Source: Halomonas sp. 1513 (lineage in GTDB: Bacteria; Pseudomonadota; Gammaproteobacteria; Pseudomonadales; Halomonadaceae). Taken from it: a stretch of DNA of 64,000 nucleotides. The stretch is taken from the NCBI GenBank assembly GCA_001971685.1, contig CP019326.1:2170001-2234000 (forward strand), written 5' to 3'. Numbering within the stretch: position 1 is the first letter of the stretch; each line of letters opens with the position of its first letter. The translations under genes were made by a program, and so were the position numbers. This document shows positions 16,976-31,243 of this stretch, piece after piece. Below the pieces are notes generated by a model. It saw only the letters and a list, made by a program, of their open reading frames with translations. It searched no databases and was not told the origin of the DNA.

Positions 16976-17057
16976 CCCCGTCAACCCATAAGGCATAGCG
17001 GATTGGGGATACTCAATGCCTGCCAAGCCACCGGGCAGGATAGCCAAGGAATCCGGC

Positions 17058-17612
17058 ATGTCAGATTCGTCTCAAGACCCTCTCGTGACCAGCCTTGCCG
17101 CCTGCGCGCAGGGCGACGGTCAGGCGCTGGAGCGAGTCTATCGCCTGGCCAGCCCGCATCTGTACGCCCAGCTGCTGCGTATTGTAAGAAACGAGAGTGC
17201 CGCCCAGGACTGCCTGCAGCAGGTCTTCATTCGCGTCTGGCAGTCTGCCGGGCAGTACGATGCCAGTCGCGCCAAGCCGATGACCTGGCTGAGCACCCTG
17301 ACCCGCAACATTGGCATCGACTGGCTGCGCCGCCAACGCCCACAGGAGGCCGACGGCCAGGCCCTGATCGACGAGCTGGCCGGGCTCGATGACCCAGCCG
17401 CTGACGGCCAGCGCGATCAGGAGAGCAGCCAGTTGCATGAGTGTCTCAAGATACTGCCCGCCAAGCAGCGCCAGGTACTTGAACTGGCTTTCTTCCACGG
17501 CTTGACCCACAGCGAGCTGGCCGGCGCCATCACCCAGCCGCTGGGCACGGTCAAGAGTTGGGTACGCCGCGGCCTGGAGAGATTGAAATCATGTCTGACG
17601 ACTGGGATCTGA
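17058..17612 (+). CDS. ECF-type RNA polymerase sigma factor
   Basis: Sigma-70 family protein of 184 aa with region 2 (LERVYRLASPHLYAQLLRIV to FIRVWQSAGQYD, plus the core-binding AKPMTWLSTLTRNIGIDWLR) and region 4 (LPAKQRQVLELAFFHGLTHSELAGAITQPLGTVKSWVRRGLERLK). The SigK-like region 4 and the adjacent RskA-type anti-sigma gene agree. The ATG at 17058 follows AAGGA by seven bases; an earlier ATG at 17016 is less likely. Its 3' end overlaps the anti-sigma gene by 22 bp, so the two are co-translated. The usual target genes of such pairs are not adjacent, so the regulon is unknown. Confidence 0.93.
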   Translation: MSDSSQDPLVTSLAACAQGDGQALERVYRLASPHLYAQLLRIVRNESAAQDCLQQVFIRVWQSAGQYDASRAKPMTWLSTLTRNIGIDWLRRQRPQEADGQALIDELAGLDDPAADGQRDQESSQLHECLKILPAKQRQVLELAFFHGLTHSELAGAITQPLGTVKSWVRRGLERLKSCLTTGI

Positions 17613-18304
17613 GCGACCCCGACGAGCGCCATCTCGCCGCCGGCGAATATGTGCTGGGCACGCTCGACGCCCAGCAGAAGGCGCGCTTCGAAGCGCTGCT
17701 GGCGGTCAGCCACGACCTGCAGAACGACGTGGCGCGCTGGCGCGAGCACCTGCAGCTGTTCAACGACCAGCTCGACCCGCGCCTGCCGCCCGCCGAGGTG
17801 TGGCGGCGCATCGCCAGCGCTACCGGTATTGCGCCACGCCCCTGGTGGCAGTCGCTGGGCATATGGCGCACCGCCAGCGGCACCTTTGCCGCGGCAGCAC
17901 TGGCACTCGGGCTGCTGTGGAGCCAGAGCGATATCACACCGCTTCCCGACGATGGCCAGGCCGTCTACGTGGTACTCGACGAGCAGCGCACGCCGGGCTG
18001 GATCATCAGCGCGACGGATAGCGGTGAGCTCTACGTCCAGGCCGTGCAGCCCACCCAGGTTGGCGCCCAGCAGACCGGCGAGCTGTGGCTGATCGCCGAC
18101 GAGACGCCGATCTCGCTGGGCCTGCTGCCCAGCGAAGGGCGTCACACCCTGGCGCCCAGCGAGGAACTGCGCGAGCTGCTGATGACCGCCGATCTTGCGG
18201 TCAGCGTCGAACCGGAGGGCGGTGCCCCGGAGGGCCAACCGACAGGGCCGATCATCGACTCCGGTCGCATGACCCCGGTGCGCGGCGGCACCTTCACCTT
18301 CTAG
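17591..18304 (+). CDS. RskA-type anti-sigma factor
   Basis: Membrane anti-sigma partner of the preceding sigma factor (237 aa). The cytoplasmic N-terminus has the AAGEYVLGTLDAQQKARFEALL motif that clamps the sigma factor. One transmembrane helix lies near residues 97-113 (ASGTFAAAALALGLLWSQ), and the periplasmic C-terminal domain contains YVVLDEQRTPGWIIS and the GELWLIADETPISLGLLP strand typical of RskA. The ATG at 17591 gives the compact protein. The stop codon TAG forms a shared CTAG with the convergent lhgO stop. Confidence 0.88.
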   Translation: MSDDWDLSDPDERHLAAGEYVLGTLDAQQKARFEALLAVSHDLQNDVARWREHLQLFNDQLDPRLPPAEVWRRIASATGIAPRPWWQSLGIWRTASGTFAAAALALGLLWSQSDITPLPDDGQAVYVVLDEQRTPGWIISATDSGELYVQAVQPTQVGAQQTGELWLIADETPISLGLLPSEGRHTLAPSEELRELLMTADLAVSVEPEGGAPEGQPTGPIIDSGRMTPVRGGTFTF

Positions 18305-19497
18305 GCATCGACCTGGGCACGCACCTTGTCGACGATATGCGCGCCGATCGGCAGCGCCGAGGTGGCCGCCGGCGACGGCGCATTGCAGACGTTGACGGTG
18401 CGCCGCGTGTTGACGAACAGGAAGTCGTCGATCAGCTTGCCCTCCCGCGATACCGCCTGGGCGCGCACCCCCGAGGGATAGGGGCCCAGGTCGTCGAGGG
18501 TCAGGCTCGGGCAGTACTTGCGCACCTCCTCGAGATAGCCCTTGCGAAACAGCGAATTCTTCATCTCCACCAGCCCTGGCCGCAGGTTCTTGCCCAGCGC
18601 CTTGAGAATGCCAGGGTTGGAGAACATCCTAGCCATGTCGAGCAGCGACACGTCGGACTTGCGATAGCCCTCGCGCTTGAGTGCCAGCACCGCGTTGGGA
18701 CCGACCGTGACGCTGCCGTCGATCATGCGCGTCAGGTGTACGCCGAGAAACGGCATCGAGGGATCGGGAATCGGGTAAATCAGGTGCTTGACGATGCGGT
18801 TGCGGGTGGCCGGCAGCTGGTAGTACTCGCCGCGGAACGGACAGATGGTGAACCCCGGGTTCTTGCCCAGCATGCGCACCAGGCGGTCGGCCATCAGTCC
18901 CGAGCAGGACACCAGGTAGCGGCTGACGAAGTCGCCCTGGCGGGTCTTAAGCACCACCTCGTGGGGGCGCTCCTCGATGCCGGTGACCTCGGTGGCGAAC
19001 TGCAGCTCACCGCCCTGGCGCTCGAACTCGGCGGCCATGGCCCGCGCCACCTCGGCGTAGTCGACGATGCCGCTGGACGGCACCAGGATCGCCCCCTCGC
19101 CGACGATATTGGGCTCCCGCTCATGCAGCTCATCGGCACTCAGCCAGTGGCGCTCCAGGCCGTTGGCCTCGGTCCGCTCCCACAGCGCCTGCATACGCTC
19201 CAGCTCCAGCGCGTTGGTGGCGACCAGCAGCTTGCCGCAGGTGTCGTAGGCGATCCCGTGCTCATCGCAGAACGCCTTGGTAGCGCGGTTACCGGCCAGG
19301 CAGAAGCGCGCCTTGAGACTCCCCGGCGCGTAGTAGACCCCGGCGTGGATCACGCCGCTGTTGTGCCCGCTCTGGTGGCGCGCCGGCCCCTCCTCCTTGT
19401 CGAGCAGCAGCATGCGGCGCCCCGGATAGACGCGGTTGAGCTGCATGGCCGTGGAGAGCCCGAGAATTCCGCCGCCGATGATGATGAAATCGTACAC
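18301..19497 (-). CDS. lhgO: L-2-hydroxyglutarate oxidase/dehydrogenase
   Basis: FAD-dependent DAO-family enzyme (398 aa) that oxidises L-2-hydroxyglutarate to 2-oxoglutarate and feeds electrons to the respiratory chain. The N-terminal dinucleotide motif is DFIIIGGGILGLSTAMQLNR, followed by DKEEGPARHQSGHNSGVIHAG, a close match to the LhgO signature. The C-terminus has NVCNAPSPAATSALPIG. In other bacteria it acts after CsiD in glutarate/lysine catabolism; no csiD is in this window. It is divergent from a GntR/FCD regulator, and a palindrome lies between them. Confidence 0.92.
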   Translation of the reverse strand: MYDFIIIGGGILGLSTAMQLNRVYPGRRMLLLDKEEGPARHQSGHNSGVIHAGVYYAPGSLKARFCLAGNRATKAFCDEHGIAYDTCGKLLVATNALELERMQALWERTEANGLERHWLSADELHEREPNIVGEGAILVPSSGIVDYAEVARAMAAEFERQGGELQFATEVTGIEERPHEVVLKTRQGDFVSRYLVSCSGLMADRLVRMLGKNPGFTICPFRGEYYQLPATRNRIVKHLIYPIPDPSMPFLGVHLTRMIDGSVTVGPNAVLALKREGYRKSDVSLLDMARMFSNPGILKALGKNLRPGLVEMKNSLFRKGYLEEVRKYCPSLTLDDLGPYPSGVRAQAVSREGKLIDDFLFVNTRRTVNVCNAPSPAATSALPIGAHIVDKVRAQVDA

Positions 19498-19550
19498 ACG
19501 CGCCTCACGCTAGGCTGAATGTTGACGTTATTGGATAATATCAGCTTCCA

Positions 19551-19565
19551 GGCGAATATTTCGCC
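19551..19565. promoter_or_regulatory. Palindromic operator candidate for the lhgO/GntR pair
   Basis: GGCGAA-TAT-TTCGCC is a perfect 6+6 inverted repeat in the 126-bp divergent region. It is 54 bp from the lhgO start and 58 bp from the regulator start, so a bound GntR-family dimer could control both genes. Confidence 0.6.
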
Positions 19566-19623
19566 AGTTCAGCGCGGTTTGAGTATCATCCAGAGCAGCA
19601 TCGTCACTCAGCCAAGGATCGCC

Positions 19624-20322
19624 ATGCCCTCGACCACGGACAGCCAACCGCGCCAGAACCTCGCCATCAGCGCCTATCAAAGCCTCAAGCGCGACATCAC
19701 TCGCGGCCAGTTCCGCCCCGGTGAAAAGCTGCTGATGAGCAAACTCAAGGAGTGCTACGGTCTCGGGGTTGGCCCGCTGCGCGAAGCGCTCTCGCAGCTG
19801 GTGGCGGAACGTCTGGTGGTCGCCATCAGCCAGCGCGGCTACCGGGTCGCGCCGATGTCACTGGCTGAACTCCACGACCTCTACGACGCTCGCTCACAGC
19901 TCGAGGCCATGCTGCTGCGCCTGGCCATCGAGCGCGGCGACGATGCCTGGGAGGCGGATATCCTGGCCAAGGCCCATACCCTGTCGCGGGTCATGGAGGT
20001 CAACGGCCCGGACGAGGTACTCGACGTCTGGGACAGCCGCCACAAGGCGTTTCACACCGCCATGGTGGCCGGCTGCAACTCCCCGCATTTAATGCAGGTG
20101 CGCGACAGCCTGTTCGACCAGGTCGAGCGCTACCGCCATCTATGGCTGCGCGAAACGGTGTTCTCCGAGACGGCACTCGAGGCCAAGCGCCAGGAGCACG
20201 CCGCCCTGGTCGAGGTGGTACTGGCCCGCGATGCCGAGCGCGCCAGCGCGATGATGTGCGAGCACCTGATGACGCCGGTGCCGATCATCACCGATACCAT
20301 GCGTCGCCAGGGCTTGCTGTAA
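19624..20322 (+). CDS. GntR-family regulator, FCD subfamily (GlaR/CsiR-like)
   Basis: Regulator of 232 aa. The winged helix spans about residues 15-85 (AYQSLKRDITRGQFRPGEKLLMSKLKE, GPLREALSQLVAERLV, QRGYRVAPMS). The all-helical FCD domain carries the metal-binding pattern with an Asp/Arg pair (LYDARSQLEAMLLRLAIERG), HKAFHTAMVAGC, and a late EHAALVEVVLARDAERASAMM. It resembles the CsiR/GlaR repressors that respond to glutarate or 2-hydroxyglutarate, which fits the divergent lhgO. The ATG at 19624 is preceded by AAGGA; the in-frame ATG at 19519 would run across the operator. Confidence 0.9.
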   Translation: MPSTTDSQPRQNLAISAYQSLKRDITRGQFRPGEKLLMSKLKECYGLGVGPLREALSQLVAERLVVAISQRGYRVAPMSLAELHDLYDARSQLEAMLLRLAIERGDDAWEADILAKAHTLSRVMEVNGPDEVLDVWDSRHKAFHTAMVAGCNSPHLMQVRDSLFDQVERYRHLWLRETVFSETALEAKRQEHAALVEVVLARDAERASAMMCEHLMTPVPIITDTMRRQGLL

Positions 20323-20938: not shown

Positions 20939-22762
20939 CTAACCATGATCGGCCCCGGCACGCGGGTTGGCCGGATAGTAGCGCTCGGGCAGGCGTTCGA
21001 TATGGGTAAAGAAGCGGGTGTCCTTGTAGGGCATCTTCATATAGCCCGATACCCCGAGCCCCTCGATCTGATCGATCGCCGCGAGAATCGTTGCTAACAG
21101 CTCGGCGAAGGCAGGTTCCTGGCTGGGGTCGAGCAGCCGGTAGTAGCTGTGTATCTTGAGGTGGGTGGGCAGCGCCTCGAAGATGATCATGCCGGTATGG
21201 CGAATGCCGTTGAGCGCCTCCAGCGCATTGATGATGGTCGCCGGCAGCACCAATAGCTCCTCCGGGTCCGGGCCATCCTCGAAGTAGGAGTGCACGCGAC
21301 TGTCGTCCTCGAGCTCGGGTACCGCGCTGACCTCATAGGGCAGCGCCATGCCCGGCACGGCACGAAACGGCGCGTCGGGCCCTGTGCGATCGATGTGCAG
21401 GGTGTCGCGGGCGTTGAACAGGCAGCTCTTGAAGATACCCTGGCGGTAGATGGCACGGGCCAGTTGGACCATGGCGTTGACCGCGCTGACGAAGGCGTCG
21501 CGTCGCGACGGGTCATGCAGGTTGAGCGAGGTGTCGATATAGACCCCGTCGCGCTCCCAGCGCACCGCCAGGCCACCGACCACCGGATAGCGCCCCAGCC
21601 GGCTGACCGCCGCCAGGAAGGCCTTCTCGGTGTCGCCCATGCCCTGCATGAACTGCTTGTAGTAGCGGTCGAGCTGCACGTCGTTGACCTCGGCAGGCGA
21701 CGCCGCAGCCCCCTCCTCGCGCAGGAAGGCCTTGCGCGAACTGTAGACCACGGTGTCGATGTCGCGGTCGGCGCGGCGGCTCCAGACCGGCACCAAAGGT
21801 GCCGGCGGCGAGCCGGGCAGGTCGAGCATCACGTGGCGCGCCAGGCGCGGCATCTCACGCAGGAAGTAGTCGCCGGCGCGGTAGCGCAGCGCGGGGTCGT
21901 CGTCGAGCAGTGCCTCCAGTACCCGCGCGAACTCCTTGGGCAGCCCCAGCGAGGTCGGCGGTATGGCGCGCCAGGCGAAGCGACACGACTGCCCCGCCGC
22001 CAGCGCATACAGCGTGGCCGCCGCGCCCTGCTCATCGAAACGCGGCGACGACAGCGCGCCGTTGAGCTGTTCCTCACCGATGAAATAGACATCGCCGAGC
22101 CGCGCATTGGTGTGCTGCAGGTCATCCGCCATCAGCGAGGCGATGCCGCTGGCCAGATGCTGGTGCTGGGCATCGAGCTGAGCGAACACCGACGAGCCCC
22201 AGTCGATCAGCGCAACGCGCTCGCTGGCGGCATCGAACACCAGGTTAGAGGGCTTGATATCGCCGTGCACCACCACCCGCGACCCGCTGCGCAAGGCGCG
22301 CAGGATATCCGCCAACTGCGCGGCAATATGCACCACCAGCCGCGGGCTCAGCGGCCCCTCGCGCAGCGAGACCTCCTCCAGGTTGAGCCCCGGGGCGCGC
22401 TCCATGACCAGGATCGACTGCTGGCGCACGCGCTGAAAGGCCACCAGCCGCGGTACCTGAGGGTGGTCGACCTGCTCGAGCATGAAGGCCTCCTCCTCGA
22501 GGCGTGCCTGTAGCTGGGCCGGCAGGGTAATGCGGTTGAACTTGAACACCAGCCAGGTGCTCTCCAGCGCTCTGGGGCGGCCGGCAAACACGAAGCCGTA
22601 GGCGCCCTTGCCGATCAGCGCAATATCCTGATAGCCGAGTTGCTCGAGCTGCGAGCGACACAGCGCTACCCAATCCTTGAGCTTGCGCGCATCGTCGTGG
22701 CTGAGCAGGTAGATCGACTGCTCTTCGGGGATATAGAACTGCTGCAGCGGCGCCTCGCTCAT
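20939..22762 (-). CDS. Hanks-type Ser/Thr protein kinase with unknown C-terminal domain
   Basis: Protein of 607 aa. An N-terminal kinase domain (about residues 45-310) shows the glycine loop LIGKGAYGFVFAG, a lysine in WLVFKFNR, a glutamate-bearing helix (EEEAFMLEQVDHPQVPRL), the catalytic loop VVHGDIKPSNLVF and a DWG in place of DFG (VALIDWGSS). All residues needed for activity seem present. The C-terminal 290 residues (from DIDTVVYSSRKAFLREEG) match nothing I recognise, and no transmembrane segment is seen. It starts 10 bp after the E2 gene, so it is the last gene of the branched-chain oxoacid dehydrogenase operon, where it may phosphorylate that complex. Confidence 0.88.
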   Translation of the reverse strand: MSEAPLQQFYIPEEQSIYLLSHDDARKLKDWVALCRSQLEQLGYQDIALIGKGAYGFVFAGRPRALESTWLVFKFNRITLPAQLQARLEEEAFMLEQVDHPQVPRLVAFQRVRQQSILVMERAPGLNLEEVSLREGPLSPRLVVHIAAQLADILRALRSGSRVVVHGDIKPSNLVFDAASERVALIDWGSSVFAQLDAQHQHLASGIASLMADDLQHTNARLGDVYFIGEEQLNGALSSPRFDEQGAAATLYALAAGQSCRFAWRAIPPTSLGLPKEFARVLEALLDDDPALRYRAGDYFLREMPRLARHVMLDLPGSPPAPLVPVWSRRADRDIDTVVYSSRKAFLREEGAAASPAEVNDVQLDRYYKQFMQGMGDTEKAFLAAVSRLGRYPVVGGLAVRWERDGVYIDTSLNLHDPSRRDAFVSAVNAMVQLARAIYRQGIFKSCLFNARDTLHIDRTGPDAPFRAVPGMALPYEVSAVPELEDDSRVHSYFEDGPDPEELLVLPATIINALEALNGIRHTGMIIFEALPTHLKIHSYYRLLDPSQEPAFAELLATILAAIDQIEGLGVSGYMKMPYKDTRFFTHIERLPERYYPANPRAGADHG

Positions 22763-22772
22763 CGCGGTCCCC

Positions 22773-23981
22773 TCAACCGAGATGCAGCAGCATCGATTCC
22801 GGGGCCTCCAGGTAGCCCTTCCACGCCTGACAGAAGCGTGCCATGTCGCCGCCGTCGAGGACGCGATGATCGCCGGCCCAGGTAACCGTGATGATCGCCC
22901 GCGACACTACCGCGCCGTCCGCATCGAAGCGCGGCAGGTGCTGCACCCGGCCGATGGCGCCGATCGCCACCTGGGGCGCGCTGATGATCGGCGTCGCATA
23001 GGTGCCGCCCAGCGCGCCGATGTTGGATAGCGTGATGGTCGCCCCCTTCAGATCGTCGCCGCCCACTCGGCCGTCGCGGGCAGCCTGGGTCAGGCGCGCG
23101 ATCTCGCCGGCCAGGGTCAACAGGCTATGCTCCTCGACGTGGCGCACCACCGGTACGATCAACCCCGCGGGGCTGTCCACCGCCATGCCGATATGACAGT
23201 GCTGATGAAAGTGCACCTCATCGCTCTCGGGTCGATAGCCGGCGTTGATGCGGGGATGCTCCGCCAGCGCCAACGCCAGGGACTTCATGAACAGCGCCAT
23301 CAGCGTCAGCCGCTGGCCAGCCGCGTCGGCCGAGGCCTTGAGCCGTCCATGCAGCGCCAGCAGCGACGTGACATCGATCTCCTCGCCGTAGTGGAAGTGC
23401 GGAATCGACACCGCCTCGCGCATATGCCGGGCCATCGCCGCGCGCAGCCCGCTCTGTTGCTCGACGCGTGCCGCCGTCTCGCTGCTCGCAGCGGGCCGTG
23501 ACGCCGCATCTGGCCGCTGAATCGCCTGCAGGTCCTCCTTCAGGACCCGGCCATCCTTGCCGGAGCCCGTCACCTCGTTCAGCGCCACGCCCAGCTCCCG
23601 CGCCAGGCGTCGCACCGCAGGGCTCGCCGGAACGCGCCGCGGACGCGGCGCCGCTTCGCCGGCCGCGGCACGAACGGCATCGGGCTCAGGCGAGGTTGGC
23701 GCTGCCTCGCCCAACGCCCCCGCGCTCTCGGCCTCGCCCTCCTGCCCGCTGCCCTGATAGCTGAACAGCGCCGAGTGCACCCTGGCGCTCTCGCCCTCGG
23801 CATAGTGCAGCGCCGTGACCCGGCCGCTCTCCGGGGCGGTGATCTCGACCAGCGCCTTGTCGGTCATCACCTCGACCACCGGCTGGTCCTCATGGATCTC
23901 GTCGCCCTCGCTGACCAGCCACTTGACCACTTCACACTCGACGATGCCCTCACCGATATCGGGCAGTTTGAATTCGCTCAT
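22773..23981 (-). CDS. bkdB: Branched-chain 2-oxoacid dehydrogenase E2 (dihydrolipoyl acyltransferase)
   Basis: Core acyltransferase (402 aa) of the complex that converts branched 2-oxoacids from Val, Leu and Ile to acyl-CoA. It has one lipoyl domain (residues 1-77, lipoylated K42 in VMTDKALVEI), an Ala/Pro/Glu linker, a peripheral-subunit-binding domain (about 117-150, VPASPAVRRLARELGV) and the catalytic domain ending with HRVLDGGDMARF, which holds the active-site histidine and aspartate. It lies 16 bp after the E1 beta gene and before the kinase gene. No E3 gene follows, so a shared dihydrolipoyl dehydrogenase is presumably used. Confidence 0.93.
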   Translation of the reverse strand: MSEFKLPDIGEGIVECEVVKWLVSEGDEIHEDQPVVEVMTDKALVEITAPESGRVTALHYAEGESARVHSALFSYQGSGQEGEAESAGALGEAAPTSPEPDAVRAAAGEAAPRPRRVPASPAVRRLARELGVALNEVTGSGKDGRVLKEDLQAIQRPDAASRPAASSETAARVEQQSGLRAAMARHMREAVSIPHFHYGEEIDVTSLLALHGRLKASADAAGQRLTLMALFMKSLALALAEHPRINAGYRPESDEVHFHQHCHIGMAVDSPAGLIVPVVRHVEEHSLLTLAGEIARLTQAARDGRVGGDDLKGATITLSNIGALGGTYATPIISAPQVAIGAIGRVQHLPRFDADGAVVSRAIITVTWAGDHRVLDGGDMARFCQAWKGYLEAPESMLLHLG

Positions 23982-23997
23982 GACACGACTCCCATCC

Positions 23998-24975
23998 CTA
24001 GAAATTGACGCTGGCGCGGATCGCCTCGAGGATCTTCAACGCATCGGGCAGATACTCCTTTTCCAGGGTCAGCGGAAACGGCGTATCCAACCCGGTGACC
24101 CGGGCGATGGGCGACTCCAGATACAGGAAGCAGCGCTGCTGGATGGTGGCAGAGATCTCGGCGGCGAAGCCGCCGGTGAGCGGCGCTTCGTGGCTGATCA
24201 CCAGACGGCCGGTCTTGAACACCGAGTCGGCCACGCAGTCGCGATCCCAGGGCAGGATGCTGCGCAGGTCGATCACCTCGCAGGAGATGCCCTCGCGCTC
24301 GGCGAGCTCGGCGGCCTCCTCGAGGATCGGCATCTGCGCCCCCCACGCCACCAGGGTGATGTCGGCCCCCTCCTTGACTACCTCGGCCTCGCCCAGCGGC
24401 AGCTGGTAGTCGCCCTCGGGCACCTCGCCGCTGGAGGCCCGGTAGAGCCGCTTGGGCTCGAAGAACAGCACCGGGTTGGGGTCGCGGATCGACGCCAGCA
24501 GCAGCCCCTTGGCCTGGTGCGGATTGCGCGGCACTACCACCTTGAGGCCGGGGGTGTGGGCGAAGTAGGCCTCCGGCGACTGCGAATGGTAGTGGCCGCC
24601 GGAGATGCCGCCACCGTAGGGGGTGCGAATCGTCAGGCCGCCGACGTCGAACAGACTGCCCGAACGGTAGCGGAACTTGGCACTCTCGTTGACGATCTGG
24701 TCGAAGGCGGGATAGATGTAGTCGGCGAACTGGATCTCGGCGACCGCTCTGTGGCCCTGGGCGGCCAGGCCGTTGGCGAAGCCGACGATGCCCTGCTCCA
24801 CCAGCGGCGTATTGAAACAGCGCGCCTTGCCGTATTTCTCCTGCAGGTGGCTGGTGGCGCGGAACACTCCGCCGAAGCTGCCCACGTCCTCGCCGAAACA
24901 GATCACCCGCGGGTCGCTGTCCATGGCCACATCCAGCGCCTGATTGATCGCCTGAAGCATGTTCATGTGCGCCAT
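23998..24975 (-). CDS. bkdA2: Branched-chain 2-oxoacid dehydrogenase E1 beta subunit
   Basis: Thiamine-diphosphate-dependent decarboxylase subunit (325 aa). [47 protein letters not shown] and [18 protein letters not shown] are E1 beta hallmarks, and the C-terminal domain carries [23 protein letters not shown] sequence. The ATG at 24975 lies one base after the E1 alpha stop; upstream in-frame starts only read back through E1 alpha in another frame. It forms the alpha2-beta2 E1 with the preceding gene product. Confidence 0.94.
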
Positions 24976-24976
24976 G

Positions 24977-26179
24977 TCACTGCCCTCCCGCCGCTGTCTC
25001 AGCAACGCCGTCGAGCCCGGCCGCGCCGCGCGGATACTCTTCGGGGTAGCGGCGCACATGCGCTTCCAGCGCTGCCAGCTGCTCGGCCAGGGCCGGCGGA
25101 ACTTGGTCGTAGACGTCGCTGACCAGGCTCGCCAAGGGCGGCGGCGCTTCACGCTCGGCGCGCTTCATGGCGGCCAGGATCTCGCCGCGCAGCTGCTCCT
25201 CTTGGTGGCGCTCCGCGTCGTCGTCCCACCAGCCTTGGCGCTCGAGCCAGTGGCGCATGCGCGCCAGCGGATCCTTCTCGCGCCACGCCGCCTCCTCCTG
25301 CTGGCTGCGATAGCCGGAGGGGTCGTCCGAGGAAGAGTGCGCCGCCAGGCGGTAGGTCATGGCCTCGATCAGCACCGGCTTATTCTCCTCGACGGCGATC
25401 CGGCGTGCCGCCAGCGTCGCCTGGTAGACCGCCAGCAGGTCGTTGCCGTCGACGCGGATCACGTGCATGCGATAGCCGAAGGCCCGCGGGGCGATGCCGT
25501 CGGCGGCGAACTGCTCGGAGGTCGGGGTGGAGATGGCGTAGCCGTTGTTGCGACACAGGAAAATCACCGGCACCTGATGCACCGAGGCCATGTTGAGCGC
25601 GGCATGGAAATCGCCCTCGGAAGCGGCTCCCTCGCCGAAGAAGGTGATGGTGCAGCGTCCTTCACCATCCAGCTTCTGGCCATAGGCGTAGCCCACCGCC
25701 TGGGGAATCTGGGTCGCCAGCGGCGAGGAGATGGTCATGTAGTGGTACTCGGCGGAGCCGTAGTGGATCGGCATCTGGCGCCCCTTGCCGTAGTCCAGGG
25801 CATTACCGAACAGCTGGTTCATGAACTCGTCGATGGAGAAACCGCGATAGGCCAACGCGCCCTGCTCGCGGTACTGGGCCATGATCATGTCGTCGTCCTG
25901 CAGCGCCGCGGTGGCGCCGACCACGGTGGCCTCCTCCCCGGTGCACTGCAGGTAGAAACTCAGCCGCCCCTGGCGCTGGGCGGCCAGCATGCGCTCGTCG
26001 AGCACGCGGGTGAAACGCATCGCGCGGTAGATACGCAGCGCCTTGTCCTGGCTCAACTCGGGGGCTTCGGCGCCGTCGTGCAGCGTGCCGTCCTGGCGCA
26101 GTAGCGCAAAGGTCGGAATCTGCCATTCGTCACCGGTCATGAACTGCGGGACGTGTACGGTGGAAGTGTCGCGGGTCAT
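24977..26179 (-). CDS. bkdA1: Branched-chain 2-oxoacid dehydrogenase E1 alpha subunit
   Basis: ThDP-binding E1 alpha (400 aa). The ThDP/metal motif is [21 protein letters not shown], followed by [12 protein letters not shown]. The loop [17 protein letters not shown] aligns by eye with the regulatory phosphorylation loop of human BCKDHA (HHSTSDDSSAYRS), with serines at both phospho-site positions. It is the first gene of the operon; about 200 bp upstream are free for its promoter, including an ACGTTAACGT palindrome. Substrates are the 2-oxoacids of valine, leucine and isoleucine. Confidence 0.94.
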
Positions 26180-26377: not shown

Positions 26378-27097
26378 TCAACGCGACGCTAGCCGCTCGA
26401 ACAGGCTATCCACGCACAGCGCCAGCAGTGCGATCAGGAGCGCGCCTTGCAGGATGAACGCCGTGTTGCCGTTGACGATGCCGGCGATGATCGGGTCGCC
26501 CAGGGTCCGCGCGCCGATGGTCGAGCCGATCGCCGCGGTGGCGATATTGATGGTCACCGAGGTGCGAATCCCGGCCAGGATCACCGGCCGCGCCAGCGGC
26601 AGTTCCACCTGCCACAGGATCTGGCGCCCCGACATGCCCATGCCGCGCGCCGACTCCATCACCCCCGGGGCAATGCCTTGAATCCCGACCAGGGTATTGC
26701 GCACGATCGGCAGCAGCCCGTAGAGGATCAGTGCAACGATGGTCGGCTGGCTGCCGAAGCCGAGTACCGGCACCGCCAGCGCCAGCACCGCCACCGGCGG
26801 AAAGGTCTGGCCGATCGAGGCCAACTGGCTGACCAACGGCAGGAAATCACGCCCCCATTGGCGGGTGACCAGTATCGCCGCGCCCATGCCCACTACGATG
26901 GCGCACAGCGAGGCCACCCCGACCAGCAGCAGGTGGTTGGCGACCAGGCTGGCGAAGCTGTCACGCTGGTAGATCAAGGTGCGGTTATCCGGCGCGACCA
27001 GCCGAAACGCCGCCTCCAACTGCGGCATCAGCAGCATCAGGGCCAGCAGCAGCAGCGCCCAGGCCAGCGGCGCACTCAAGCGATGCACCACGCTCAT
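26378..27097 (-). CDS. yehW: Osmoprotectant-type ABC transporter permease (YehW-like)
   Basis: Inner-membrane permease (239 aa, about six transmembrane segments). The cytoplasmic coupling loop is ESARGMGMSGRQILWQVELPLARPVILAGIR, the EAA motif of this family. It is the shorter of the two permeases, as in E. coli YehW (about 243 aa). Its start overlaps the ATPase stop (ATGA, 27094-27097). The complete set here runs receptor, long permease, ATPase, short permease, the same order as yehZYXW. Confidence 0.9.
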   Translation of the reverse strand: MSVVHRLSAPLAWALLLLALMLLMPQLEAAFRLVAPDNRTLIYQRDSFASLVANHLLLVGVASLCAIVVGMGAAILVTRQWGRDFLPLVSQLASIGQTFPPVAVLALAVPVLGFGSQPTIVALILYGLLPIVRNTLVGIQGIAPGVMESARGMGMSGRQILWQVELPLARPVILAGIRTSVTINIATAAIGSTIGARTLGDPIIAGIVNGNTAFILQGALLIALLALCVDSLFERLASR

Positions 27098-28086
27098 GGG
27101 CTGGCGTCCCGCTGGATCACGGCATCCTGCAGCGAGAGGCTGCCGATCACCTGGCCGTCAGGGTCGCTGACCAGCAGGCTGTCGACGCCGTGCCACAGCA
27201 TCAGCGACAGCGCTTGGCGCAGGCTGTCGTCGGCGGCAACGCTCAGCGTCTCCTGCGCCCGGGCGCCTCGCTGGGCGTCGCTGAACGGGCGCATGCGCTC
27301 CGCCACCCGGGTCAGCGCGGCGTGCTTGAGGCCACGATCGCGCCCGCCCAGCAGCGATTCGACGAAGGCGTTGGCCGGCTCCCGAAGCAGCGCCTCAGCA
27401 CTGCCCTGCTGGACGATACGACCGGCGTCCATGACCACGATACGGTCAGCCAGCTTGAGCGCCTCGTCCATGTCGTGGGTGACGAAGACGATGGTCTTGT
27501 GCAGCCGCGCCTGCAGCCGCAAAAGCTCGTCCTGCAGGCTTTCGCGGGTAATCGGGTCGAGCGCCCCGAAGGGCTCGTCCATCAGCAGCACCTCGGGATC
27601 CGCGGCCAGGGCTCGCGCTACGCCGACCCGCTGCGCCTGGCCGCCGGAGAGCTGGTGAGGGTACTTGCCGGCGAACTCGCCCTCGTCGAGGCCAAGCAGC
27701 GCCAGCAGTTCGCTGACCCGCGCAGCGATCCGCGACGTTGGCCAGCGCAGCAGGCGTGGTACCAGGCCGATATTGCGCGCCACCGTCCAGTGGGGAAACA
27801 GCCCGGTACTCTGGATGGCGTAGCCGATCCGCCGCCGCAGACGCTGCTCGTCGAAGTCGCGGATCTGCTGGCCGTCGATGCGAATCTGCCCGGCAGTATG
27901 TTCGATCAGGCGGTTGATCATGCGCAGGGTGGTCGACTTGCCGCAGCCGGACGTCCCCACCAGCACGCACAGCTCGCCGCGGGGAATGGCAAGCGAGATG
28001 GCGTCCACCGCCGCGGCATCGCCGAAGCGCTTGGTGACCGCATCGAGCTCGATCATGGTCGGCGCGCTAGCGTCTCGTTCAGCCAT
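27094..28086 (-). CDS. yehX: Osmoprotectant-type ABC transporter ATP-binding protein (YehX-like)
   Basis: ATPase of 330 aa. Walker A is GTSGCGKSTT, the signature LSGGQAQRVGVARAL, Walker B VLLMDEPFGALD, and the switch histidine is in VFVTHDMDEAL. A C-terminal extension (about residues 270-330, LSVAADDSLRQALSLMLWHGVDSLLVSDPDGQ) reads as a single CBS-like unit, the sort used to sense ionic strength in OpuA-type systems. The ATG at 28086 is used; an upstream ATG at 28146 would extend into the previous permease. It overlaps both neighbours by a few bases. Confidence 0.92.
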   Translation of the reverse strand: MAERDASAPTMIELDAVTKRFGDAAAVDAISLAIPRGELCVLVGTSGCGKSTTLRMINRLIEHTAGQIRIDGQQIRDFDEQRLRRRIGYAIQSTGLFPHWTVARNIGLVPRLLRWPTSRIAARVSELLALLGLDEGEFAGKYPHQLSGGQAQRVGVARALAADPEVLLMDEPFGALDPITRESLQDELLRLQARLHKTIVFVTHDMDEALKLADRIVVMDAGRIVQQGSAEALLREPANAFVESLLGGRDRGLKHAALTRVAERMRPFSDAQRGARAQETLSVAADDSLRQALSLMLWHGVDSLLVSDPDGQVIGSLSLQDAVIQRDASP

Positions 28087-29278
28087 GTGCGACTCCCCTT
28101 CCCTGAGCGCGGCGCAGCTGCTCGGCCAGGGCGCTGAACGCGCCATCCACCAGCAGCGCGATAAGAATGATCGGCAAGGCTCCCAGCAGCACCAGGTCCA
28201 TCGCCGCCTGCCCCAGCCCCTGGAAGATGAAGGTGCCCAGCCCGCCGGCGCCGATCAGCGCCGCCACGGCAGCAAGGCCGATGGCCTGCACCGCGGTGAT
28301 GCGAATCCCCTCCAGCATTACCGGCAGCGCCAGCGGCAGCCTCACCTGCCAGAACACCTGCGCGGGGCTCATGCCCATGCCACGCGCGGCATCGGTGACG
28401 TCGGCGGCCACCTCATCGAGGGCCACGTAGGCGTTGCGGGTCATCGGCAGCAGGCTGTAGGCGACCAGGGCGATAAACGCCGGCGCCCAGCCGATGCCGC
28501 GCACTCCCAGGTCGCCCAGCCAGGTAAAACGCGCGGCGAGATAGGCCAGCGGCGCCAGCAGCAGCCCGAACAGCGCCAGGCTGGGAATCGTCTGCAGTAC
28601 GCTGAGCACGCTGAAGGTCCCTCGGCGCAGCCCCGCCCAGCGCCGCATGGCCAGCGCCAGCGCGGCCGCCAGCAGCAGGCTGATGCCGACCACCGCCGCC
28701 ACCAGCAGCAGGTGATAGCGCAGCGCGGCATGAAAGGCGGCACTGCGGCCGTGGTACTCACGCATCAGCGCCAGGCTGTCGAGCCCGCCGCTGGCCAAGG
28801 CGGCGAACAGCGACAAGGCCAGCACCAGCGTCAGCCCCCAGCGCGGCAGCGGCGCCAGCGTCAGGCGGTTGAGCAGCTCCAGCAGCGCCAGCAGCAGCAC
28901 GAAAAGTAACGCCCACAGGCCAGCACCGAGGCCGATCCTGGCCGACGCCATGTCGGGGTCGATGTGCTCGGCCGCAACCGCCACCAGGCCCCACGGCAGC
29001 AGCGCCAGGCACAGGCCAACCAGCGCCAGGGCCGTCGCCAATGCACGCCGCGTGGGCCGCAACCCCAGCCAGGCCAGGGCGGCTAGCAGGATCAGCACGC
29101 CAGCCAGCGCCAGCGGCCCTCCCAGGGCCCACAGCGTCAGGCCCTCTCCGGGCATGATGCGGTTGGGCTGGACGCTGACCAGCGGCAGGCCGAGCATGAC
29201 CGCCGCAGCCAGTGCAGTGAGCACCAGCAGCACCGGATTGGGCGCCGCGGCAGGCGGCGCCCCGGCAACATCACTCAC
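28079..29278 (-). CDS. yehY: Osmoprotectant-type ABC transporter permease with long N-terminal membrane region (YehY-like)
   Basis: Permease of 399 aa, close to the 385 aa of E. coli YehY. The first half adds several hydrophobic segments (LLVLTALAAAVMLGLPLV, LALAGVLILLAALAWLGL), and the second half holds the permease fold with coupling loop DAARGMGMSPAQVFWQVRLPLALPVMLEGIR. No ATG fits the start. A GTG at 29278, five bases after the receptor stop, gives VSDVAGAPPAAAPNPVLL and is the likely initiation codon. It overlaps the ATPase gene by 8 bp. Confidence 0.87.
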   Translation of the reverse strand: MSDVAGAPPAAAPNPVLLVLTALAAAVMLGLPLVSVQPNRIMPGEGLTLWALGGPLALAGVLILLAALAWLGLRPTRRALATALALVGLCLALLPWGLVAVAAEHIDPDMASARIGLGAGLWALLFVLLLALLELLNRLTLAPLPRWGLTLVLALSLFAALASGGLDSLALMREYHGRSAAFHAALRYHLLLVAAVVGISLLLAAALALAMRRWAGLRRGTFSVLSVLQTIPSLALFGLLLAPLAYLAARFTWLGDLGVRGIGWAPAFIALVAYSLLPMTRNAYVALDEVAADVTDAARGMGMSPAQVFWQVRLPLALPVMLEGIRITAVQAIGLAAVAALIGAGGLGTFIFQGLGQAAMDLVLLGALPIILIALLVDGAFSALAEQLRRAQGRGVAHG

Positions 29279-29283
29279 GTCGC

Positions 29284-30192
29284 TCAGAGCCCGTCGAGAA
29301 ACTCGCTGGCGACCTGGCGCGGGTCGGCACCTTCGACCGCCACGTCGCCGTTGAGGCGCTGCAGGGTCTCCAGGTCCAGGGCCTCGAAGACCGGCGTCAG
29401 CAGCGACTCGATCTCCGGATACGCCTCGAGCACGTCCTCGCGGATCAGCGGCGCCGGCTGGTAGACCGGCTGCACCGCCAGGGTATCCTCGAGCACCTTG
29501 ATATCCAGGGCATTGAGCCCGCCGTCGGTGCCGTAGGCCATGGCGGCATTGACGCCGTTGGTCTGTAGCGCGGCAGCACGCAGGGTGGCGGCGGTGTTGC
29601 CCCCCGACAGCACCACCAGCTGGTCGGAACTCAGCTCGAAGCCGTAGGCGTCCTGAAACGCCGGCAGCGCCGCCTCGGACTCGACGAACTCGGCGCTGGC
29701 GGCAAAGATGAACTCGCCGCCGTCGGCCAGGTAGTCGGCCAGGTCTTCGAGGGTCTCGAGACCGTGCTCGCGGGCCACATCGCCGCGCACGCTCATCGCC
29801 CAGGTATTGTTGGCGTTGGCGGGCGTCAGCCACACCAGGCCGTTGCGCTCGAGGTCCAGCGCGGCGACTTCGGCATGTGCCGCCTCGGCATCGCGCCACA
29901 GGTCGCTGTCGGCCATGTCGAAGAAGAAGGCACCGTTGCCGGTGTATTCCGGGTAGATATCGATCTCGCCGGCGATGATCGCCTCGCGCACGATGCTGGT
30001 ACCACCCAGCTGGGTGCGATCCTCGACGTCGATACCGGCCCGCTCCAGACTGAGCAGGATCAACTGACCAAGCACGGCGCCTTCGGTATCGATCTTCGAC
30101 GACACCACCACGGGATCGTCCGCCTGGGCGCTACTCAGGCTCAGCAAGCCGCCGGCCAGCACGGCACTCATCCACGTCAACGTCCTGTTCAT
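29284..30192 (-). CDS. osmF: Osmoprotectant-type ABC transporter substrate-binding protein (OsmF/YehZ-like)
   Basis: Periplasmic quaternary-amine-type receptor (302 aa). The signal peptide ends after LSSAQA, and the mature protein starts DDPVVVSSKIDTEGAVLGQLI. TSIVREAIIAGEIDIYPEYTGNG is the classical OpuAC-family ligand-site stretch. MNRTLTW at 30192 is the start; an earlier ATG at 30249 would precede the signal peptide. Glycine betaine or a related solute is the usual guess, but YehZ proteins bind it weakly and the true ligand may differ. Confidence 0.9.
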   Translation of the reverse strand: MNRTLTWMSAVLAGGLLSLSSAQADDPVVVSSKIDTEGAVLGQLILLSLERAGIDVEDRTQLGGTSIVREAIIAGEIDIYPEYTGNGAFFFDMADSDLWRDAEAAHAEVAALDLERNGLVWLTPANANNTWAMSVRGDVAREHGLETLEDLADYLADGGEFIFAASAEFVESEAALPAFQDAYGFELSSDQLVVLSGGNTAATLRAAALQTNGVNAAMAYGTDGGLNALDIKVLEDTLAVQPVYQPAPLIREDVLEAYPEIESLLTPVFEALDLETLQRLNGDVAVEGADPRQVASEFLDGL

Positions 30193-30247
30193 CGCAACCG
30201 CTCCGGTGTCAAATGGGTGTGGGATCAGTATCAAGGAAGCCAGTCGC

Positions 30248-31243
30248 ATGTGCCAGACGGACGATCAACGCCTCATCGCACGCTACAGCCACCCGCTGGT
30301 TCGCGACCTGGCCTGGCTGATCACCGCCCCTGACCTGCTGGCGATGGCGTGGCCGGGGCGTCCCACTGGCGAAGAGCTGGGCCTCATCGGCACTGCCCTC
30401 ACCGAGTACCTCGACGCCCAGCAGCACGATCCTCTGCTGCTGGAAGGACGCGTCGCCGACAGCGCCAGCGGTCGACTCGGCCACTACCACGAGCGGCTCT
30501 GGCAGCATCTGCTCGACAGCGCTCCGGGCACGCGTCTGATTGCCCACAACTGCCGCATCGAGCGCGACAAGCGCACCCTGGGCGAGCTCGACCTGATCTA
30601 CCAGCGTCGCTGCGACGGGCGCCTGATACATCTCGAGGTAGCGATCAAATTCTACTTGGGCCTGGTGGAGGGCCCCGGCGGCGCCGACAGCCAGTCGCGC
30701 TGGATCGGCCCCGGCTGCGTCGACAGCCTGGCGGTCAAGCGCCAGCATCTTCACGACCACCAGCTGCCGCTGCTCGATCGGATCAGCGATACCGACACCC
30801 TCGGCCAACTGCTTGGCTCAGCGGCGCTGGTCGAGGACGCCCTGCTCAACGGCATCGAACAGCGCCTGGCGATTCCCGGCGCGCTGTTCTACCCGCTGGC
30901 ATCTGATGCCTCCGCTCTACTCGCCCCCCGCGAGGCCACCGCTGACCATCTGCGCGGGCACTGGCTGCATGAATCTCAGTGGGACGAGTTGCGCCACGGG
31001 CTCGACGCCGACACCAGCGGCGCCTGGCTCAGCAAGCCGCACTGGCTGGCCCCGCCGAGCGCATCGCAGCTGCTGCCGCTGGCCGAACTGGATGCCCATA
31101 TCCGCGCGCACTTCGCGGCGCGCCCAGCGCCGCTGCCGGTGATGCTGCACGGCGCCACTGGTTGGCAGCGGCTGTTCATCGTCAGCGACGACTGGCCGCG
31201 ACGTATCCCGCTGCCGCCCTTGGCGGCAGTTGCCGTACGCTAA
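30248..31243 (+). CDS. DUF1853-family protein
   Basis: Conserved cytoplasmic protein of 331 aa with no established function. LIAHNCRIERDKRTLGELDLIYQRR followed by IHLEVAIKFYLG gives a strand-Asp-strand-Glu-Lys pattern like PD-(D/E)XK nuclease folds. That resemblance is my inference. DSQSRWIGPGCVDSLAVKRQHLHDHQLPLL is another well-defined block of the family. The ATG at 30248 follows AAGGA; an upstream in-frame ATG at 30206 would overlap the divergent promoter. It diverges from osmF with only 55 bp between. Confidence 0.82.
   Translation: MCQTDDQRLIARYSHPLVRDLAWLITAPDLLAMAWPGRPTGEELGLIGTALTEYLDAQQHDPLLLEGRVADSASGRLGHYHERLWQHLLDSAPGTRLIAHNCRIERDKRTLGELDLIYQRRCDGRLIHLEVAIKFYLGLVEGPGGADSQSRWIGPGCVDSLAVKRQHLHDHQLPLLDRISDTDTLGQLLGSAALVEDALLNGIEQRLAIPGALFYPLASDASALLAPREATADHLRGHWLHESQWDELRHGLDADTSGAWLSKPHWLAPPSASQLLPLAELDAHIRAHFAARPAPLPVMLHGATGWQRLFIVSDDWPRRIPLPPLAAVAVR

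Follow-up and report, generated by a model that had tools for sequence, protein, structure and literature searches.

The last gene of the bkd operon in the 64,000-nucleotide stretch of Halomonas sp. 1513 analyzed here (the window) encodes a Hanks-type protein kinase with an unrecognized extra domain, and this kinase occurs almost only in genomes that also encode a mitochondrial-type branched-chain oxoacid dehydrogenase (BCKDH) complex, whether or not the genes are adjacent. It is very likely that the kinase and BCKDH are functional partners, and phosphorylation of the E1 alpha subunit by the kinase is a plausible form for that partnership to take.

Co-occurrence of the kinase with one BCKDH lineage

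The E1 alpha subunit of the window has its best PDB matches in human BCKDHA (1dtw and 2bff, E about 1e-120), compared with 8e-62 for 1qs0, which we take to be the E1 of Pseudomonas putida. The designation mitochondrial-type means that an E1 alpha clusters with human BCKDHA and separately from the remaining bacterial E1 alpha sequences, and this is what was found: in a tree of 37 rows BCKDHA joined 21 E1 alpha of the lineage (that of genome G126 included) with support of 100/98, apart from 15 others, which were 13 sequences from kinase-less genomes and 2 paralogues from kinase-bearing genomes. The tree contains a single human sequence, and some long branches outside the lineage are unsure. Because both the tree and the PDB ranking place the partner E1 alpha with BCKDHA, the kinase tracks the mitochondrial-type E1, and not the P. 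putida type, within the Pseudomonadota sampled.

Whole genomes passing a completeness filter of 90 were searched for the kinase and for E1 alpha in samples of the order (245 genomes), class (276) and phylum (299), which overlap (G000 is in all three) and for which the kinase query differed (that of the window, of L103 or of L120). In the order sample, kinase matches were obtained in 36 genomes, 30 of them full-length (E ≤ 1.8e-173) and the other 6 being hits to generic kinases (E 4e-13 to 5e-11), E1 alpha was found at E ≤ 1e-100 in 30, and the resulting tally is 29 genomes with both, one with the kinase only, one with E1 alpha only and 214 with neither. The class sample yielded the kinase in 3 genomes and E1 alpha at E ≤ 1e-60 in 12, where the 3 kinase-bearing genomes matched at E ≤ 4e-152 and the 9 lacking the kinase at E ≥ 4e-74, giving a tally of 3 with both, none with the kinase only, none with E1 alpha only and 273 with neither. 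In the phylum sample the kinase was present in 25 genomes and E1 alpha (E ≤ 1e-85) in the identical 25, with none having just one of them and 274 having neither. Fisher tests, in which kinship is ignored, gave p values of 2e-35 (order), 3e-7 (class) and 6e-37 (phylum).

Across the samples, 47 distinct genomes have both genes, one (G182) has only the kinase and one (G126) has only E1 alpha. In 37 of the 47 the kinase and E1 alpha genes are separated by at most about 5 kb, and in the other 10 they are unlinked, which indicates that the tie between them is more than linkage. Unlinked genes are found on different contigs (G241, G165, G185, G765, G753, and G716) or at distances of 69 kb (G145), 289 kb (G743), 1.7 Mb (G668) and 2.0 Mb (G683), the last two being far apart yet on a single contig. 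These unlinked pairs fall in four sampled families (f5, f164, f207, and f211), the neighbors of the kinase at the unlinked loci examined differ between families, and the kinase of G668 shares 99% identity with proteins that carry the name Shewanella. As a neighborhood control, limited to one gene and to the same 299-genome phylum sample, the oxidoreductase at 18304-19497, which ends 1.4 kb past the kinase, was found in 24 genomes, with 4 among the 25 that have the kinase. A co-occurrence search of this kind had been suggested as a check in a first-pass annotation of the window, and it ties the kinase family to one bkd lineage, unlinked cases included.

Linkage was examined with one genome per species in the best 80 of 295 kinase loci, which come from closely related organisms: Halomonas with its allied genera, Marinobacter, and a pair of metagenome bins labeled Aquisalimonas. 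All 80 have an E2 match upstream of, and codirectional with, the kinase, within 300 bases in 78 (median 31) and at 7.6 kb in L031 and 2.1 kb in L078, and E1 alpha is also visible in the examined stretch of 75.

The operon and its kinase

The features of the operon and of its products, all on the minus strand, are as follows.

24977-26179, minus: bkdA1, E1 alpha of the mitochondrial (BCKDHA) type (Pfam E1_dh, 7e-96; PDB ranking; tree)
25304-25339, minus: E1 alpha loop, residues 281-292, in which S282 and S292 align with both human BCKDHA loop serines
23998-24975, minus: bkdA2, E1 beta (Pfam Transket_pyr and Transketolase_C)
22773-23981, minus: bkdB, E2 acyltransferase with lipoyl and E3-binding domains (Pfam 2-oxoacid_dh, 2e-76)
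20939-22762, minus: Hanks-type Ser/Thr protein kinase of 607 residues, the final bkd operon gene (Pfam Pkinase, 1.5e-17)
22700-22738, minus: kinase N-terminal motif FYIPEEQSIYLLS, residues 9-21, conserved, of low confidence in the model, a putative docking motif
21827-22660, minus: kinase domain, about residues 35-312
20942-21805, minus: kinase C-terminal domain, residues 320-607, two tandem alpha-beta-beta-alpha-beta units with no family match

The order bkdA1-bkdA2-bkdB followed after 10 bp by a kinase, as initially annotated, agrees with the coordinates and the Pfam assignments, there being 10 bases between the E2 stop codon and the kinase ATG. In P. putida the operon is bkdA1-bkdA2-bkdB-lpdV, so that the first three genes are common to both but the fourth encodes E3 there and a kinase here, and the E1 alpha belongs to another lineage. 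No E3 gene follows the kinase in the operon of the window. The genome has one lipoamide dehydrogenase above the family cut-off, about 0.93 Mb from the operon, and three further matches below it, and since the sole protein above the cut-off is that distant, E3 is presumably shared.

The kinase has the sequence features of the Hanks type, namely a Gly-rich loop (GKGAYG), a VAIK-type Lys (K74), an alphaC Glu (E91), a D-x-K-x-x-N catalytic loop (HGDIKPSN, with D168 and N173) and a DFG-type Asp (D187 of DWG). The initial report of intact motifs is upheld by this inspection and by a 26-member alignment in which K74, E91, D168, K170, N173, and D187 are invariant. The predicted model has the bilobal protein kinase fold, and protein kinases such as PknB, ULK1, and CaMKII head the 50 structural matches listed for the kinase domain. 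With its active-site residues and its modeled fold intact, the enzyme is predicted to phosphorylate proteins on Ser/Thr. It resembles bacterial Ser/Thr kinases of the PknB/StkP type in the fold and motifs of the kinase domain, but differs from them in having no PASTA domain among its Pfam matches, in its unrecognized and apparently duplicated C-terminal domain and in its location in a metabolic operon. Among the 5 Pfam families that match the kinase at E ≤ 0.1 there is no HATPase or BCDHK-type domain, and membership of the BCKDK/PDHK family is ruled out by this and by the PknB-like model of the kinase domain. Defense kinases were also considered: the scores for MAD6 (45 bits against an NCBIfam cut-off of 460) and PglW (35 bits against 990) exclude both. 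A PADLOC model of PD-T4-6, which has no curated cut-off, gave a partial match (residues 37-358, E 2e-23), and the metabolic operon speaks against a defense role of that kind.

Outside the kinase domain there are two conserved regions. Of 136 kinase loci, in which some genomes occur more than once, 121 fit a strict pattern for the N-terminal motif FYIPEEQSIYLLS, 14 more have a variant recognizable by eye and only L110, the locus of G182, lacks the motif; residues 1-22 of the model have a predicted local distance difference test score (pLDDT) below 50. The C-terminal domain had been described at first as not assignable to a family, which remains the case, as Pfam has nothing for residues 320-607 of the window protein at E ≤ 1 and a profile of 53 members found no matching sequence in the PDB. 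Structure prediction, the suggested next step, was carried out on this domain alone and gave a pLDDT of 79.0 and a predicted template modeling score of 0.76 (53 sequences), and no convincing fold match to the model was found in the PDB or among viral models. Its two halves align by profile with a probability of 63% and an E value of 7e-5 (the best of 20 column shuffles reached 13%), and the domain looks like a tandem duplication. It may be a sensor or docking domain.

Proposed role of the kinase and its alternatives

The explanation that we favor, with moderate confidence, is a kinase dedicated to BCKDH that has the E1 alpha loop as its likeliest target and lowers flux through the complex. Dedication to the complex is highly probable and action by phosphorylation of one of its subunits is probable, while the loop as the site of phosphorylation is a tentative assignment that falls a little short of an even chance. 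The Ser/Thr kinase would serve the mitochondrial-type BCKDH of a set of Gammaproteobacteria comprising Halomonas relatives, Marinobacter, Shewanella, and others, and would be docked on the complex, or would sense a metabolite of the pathway, by means of its N-terminal motif and/or its C-terminal domain. It would then phosphorylate the complex, most likely at S292 and/or S282 of the E1 alpha loop, and the flux through BCKDH would fall when there is a need to spare branched-chain amino acids.

The mammalian kinase BCKDK has a GHKL, or histidine-kinase-like, fold and is dedicated to its complex, as is proposed for the bacterial kinase, and the human E1 alpha is of the same lineage as that of the window; the bacterial enzyme differs in being Hanks-type and PknB-like with an unrelated C-terminal domain. 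The human BCKDH is inactivated by phosphorylation of E1 alpha, according to passages of PMC8878489. A convergent version of BCKDH control is a good but unproven reading of the bacterial system. We consider it evenly balanced whether this is a second, independently recruited BCKDH kinase, Hanks-type with a duplicated sensor or docking domain, which acts on the E1 lineage that is under a GHKL kinase in mitochondria, possibly at the same loop, such that reversible BCKDH phosphorylation arose twice.

The loop itself was compared in 120 E1 alpha lineage loci, several of which come from a genome already represented. Site 1 (S282) is Ser in all 120, and site 2 (S292) is Ser in 110, Thr in 7, Gly in 2 and Ala in 1, that is, Ser or Thr in 117. 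Both Gly are from G126, which has no kinase. The 16 distant E1 alpha have Pro (6), Asp (4), Ala (3), Ser (2), or Asn (1) at this position. Site 2 follows the kinase weakly, which is suggestive, but the independent events are few and Ser is also present there in the human protein.

Several observations weigh against the proposed role. The one Ala at site 2 (L116) is from a kinase-bearing genome, G196. Site 1 in 13 E1 alpha of kinase-less genomes is Ser in 6, Thr in 6 and Phe in 1, and because 12 of 13 have Ser or Thr where there is no kinase, site 1 provides no evidence for a kinase target; its conservation there is as expected if it has a catalytic or structural role. The co-occurrence tests take no account of shared ancestry. 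No dedicated phosphatase was found in a search confined to PP2C_2 among phosphatase families: of the 14 kinase-bearing genomes searched at E ≤ 1e-6, 11 have it and 3, that of the window included, lack it, and it was detected in 5 of 10 genomes without the kinase. Because the window genome has no PP2C_2 protein at the threshold used, a bolder version of the proposal would have the C-terminal domain also supply a reversing (phosphatase) or metabolite-sensing function. Finally, G126 has E1 alpha, E1 beta, and E2 followed by a different gene and no kinase match, and so keeps the complex without the kinase, in a fragmented assembly of 280 contigs that is 97% complete. In favor of the proposal, the converse case, G182, is the 1 of 48 kinase genomes without a BCKDHA-type E1 alpha (its best match is distant, with stops, E 4e-32), and its kinase is truncated at the 5′ end: the match to the L109 kinase begins at residue 39 of the latter, where 27 of 27 residues are identical, and no trace of the preceding part, N-terminal motif included, was found in the 15 kb examined. 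Both G182 and G126 look like secondary losses. The fourth gene after E2 in G126 (L145, 9614-10687) resembles leucine dehydrogenase, as judged by its first residues only.

The loop assignment competes with a target elsewhere in the same complex or pathway, such as E2, E1 beta, or another of the enzymes or regulators involved in branched-chain amino acid catabolism. All of the co-occurrence evidence fits that explanation equally well, site 1 is not diagnostic, G196 has the kinase without Ser or Thr at site 2, and bkd in L150 and L151 adjoins apparent leucine-degradation genes (read from the first residues of the open reading frames). We nevertheless regard a target outside the loop as somewhat unlikely, given the Ser/Thr pattern at site 2 and its loss in G126, although these are few events, and given that E1 alpha is where the human complex, whose E1 is of this lineage, is controlled (passages of PMC8878489). 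The first-pass annotation had inferred that the kinase may regulate BCKDH and had argued from the serines retained in the loop. The serines are indeed kept and the kinase is tied to this bkd lineage even where unlinked, but the argument from the loop is weaker than it was put, as only site 2 bears a relation to the kinase.

Two other explanations are far less probable. A small molecule linked to the pathway would be the substrate if the protein were a metabolite kinase resembling APH, a family that it also matches (E 5e-10); this is very improbable in view of the better Pkinase score (1.5e-17), the structural matches listed, which are headed by PknB, ULK1, and CaMKII, and the HGDIKPSN catalytic loop, with its Lys typical of Ser/Thr protein kinases. 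Least probable of all is shared ancestry with operon hitch-hiking in a few lineages and no functional tie, for which the phylogenetic clumping of the samples and the disregard of kinship in the tests would allow, but which fits poorly with a pairing that persists in four families although the genes are unlinked, with relatives that lack one gene also lacking the other (for example, G033, G157, G233, and G215 in family f1), and with a neighboring control gene that does not have the same pattern (4 of 25 kinase genomes).

If the proposal is correct, an oxoacid dehydrogenase complex would have a dedicated bacterial kinase, convergent with a medically important mitochondrial switch, and the view of how amino acid breakdown is controlled in Marinobacter, Halomonas, and Shewanella would change. 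A gammaproteobacterial kinase family to which no function is assigned in the literature found would also gain one, and the system offers a way of asking with purified components whether evolution used the E1 alpha loop as a control point twice.

Literature and neighboring genes

In a literature search of limited depth, no paper linking a kinase to bacterial bkd or BCKDH was found. Passages of a 2010 study describe Cluster 5 as “Gammaproteobacteria specific” kinases and name Shewanella, Marinobacter, Pseudoalteromonas, and Alteromonas (PMC2877116). In a comparison by taxon list alone, Shewanella and Marinobacter are common to both, and from this overlap Cluster 5 is probably the same family; no function for it was found in those passages, and “dehydrogenase” appears 0 times in the main text. 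Of PMC3223726 and PMC3219624, the paper on a Shewanella regulon treats bkd and has “kinase” 0 times in its available text, and the fitness paper has neither “bkd” nor “protein kinase” in its own. In the available part of a paper on a Staphylococcus aureus kinase, 2-oxoisovalerate dehydrogenase comes up only as a locus entered in a transposon table (PMC2884019).

Past the kinase, at 18304-20319, an FAD oxidoreductase of the DAO family (18304-19497, presumably lhgO) is divergent from a GntR/FCD regulator, and both also adjoin the kinase in L001-L004. At 17016-18304 on the plus strand, the gene for an ECF-like sigma factor overlaps the next one, which encodes an RskA-type anti-sigma factor (Pfam). 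Directly upstream of bkd, at 26381-30249 on the minus strand, is a glycine-betaine-type ABC transport group (OpuAC, two permeases, and an ATPase; Pfam). Related genes are located likewise in many Halomonas loci, and the Marinobacter loci gave no match upstream of bkd. A DUF1853 protein (Pfam) is encoded at 30206-31240 on the plus strand.

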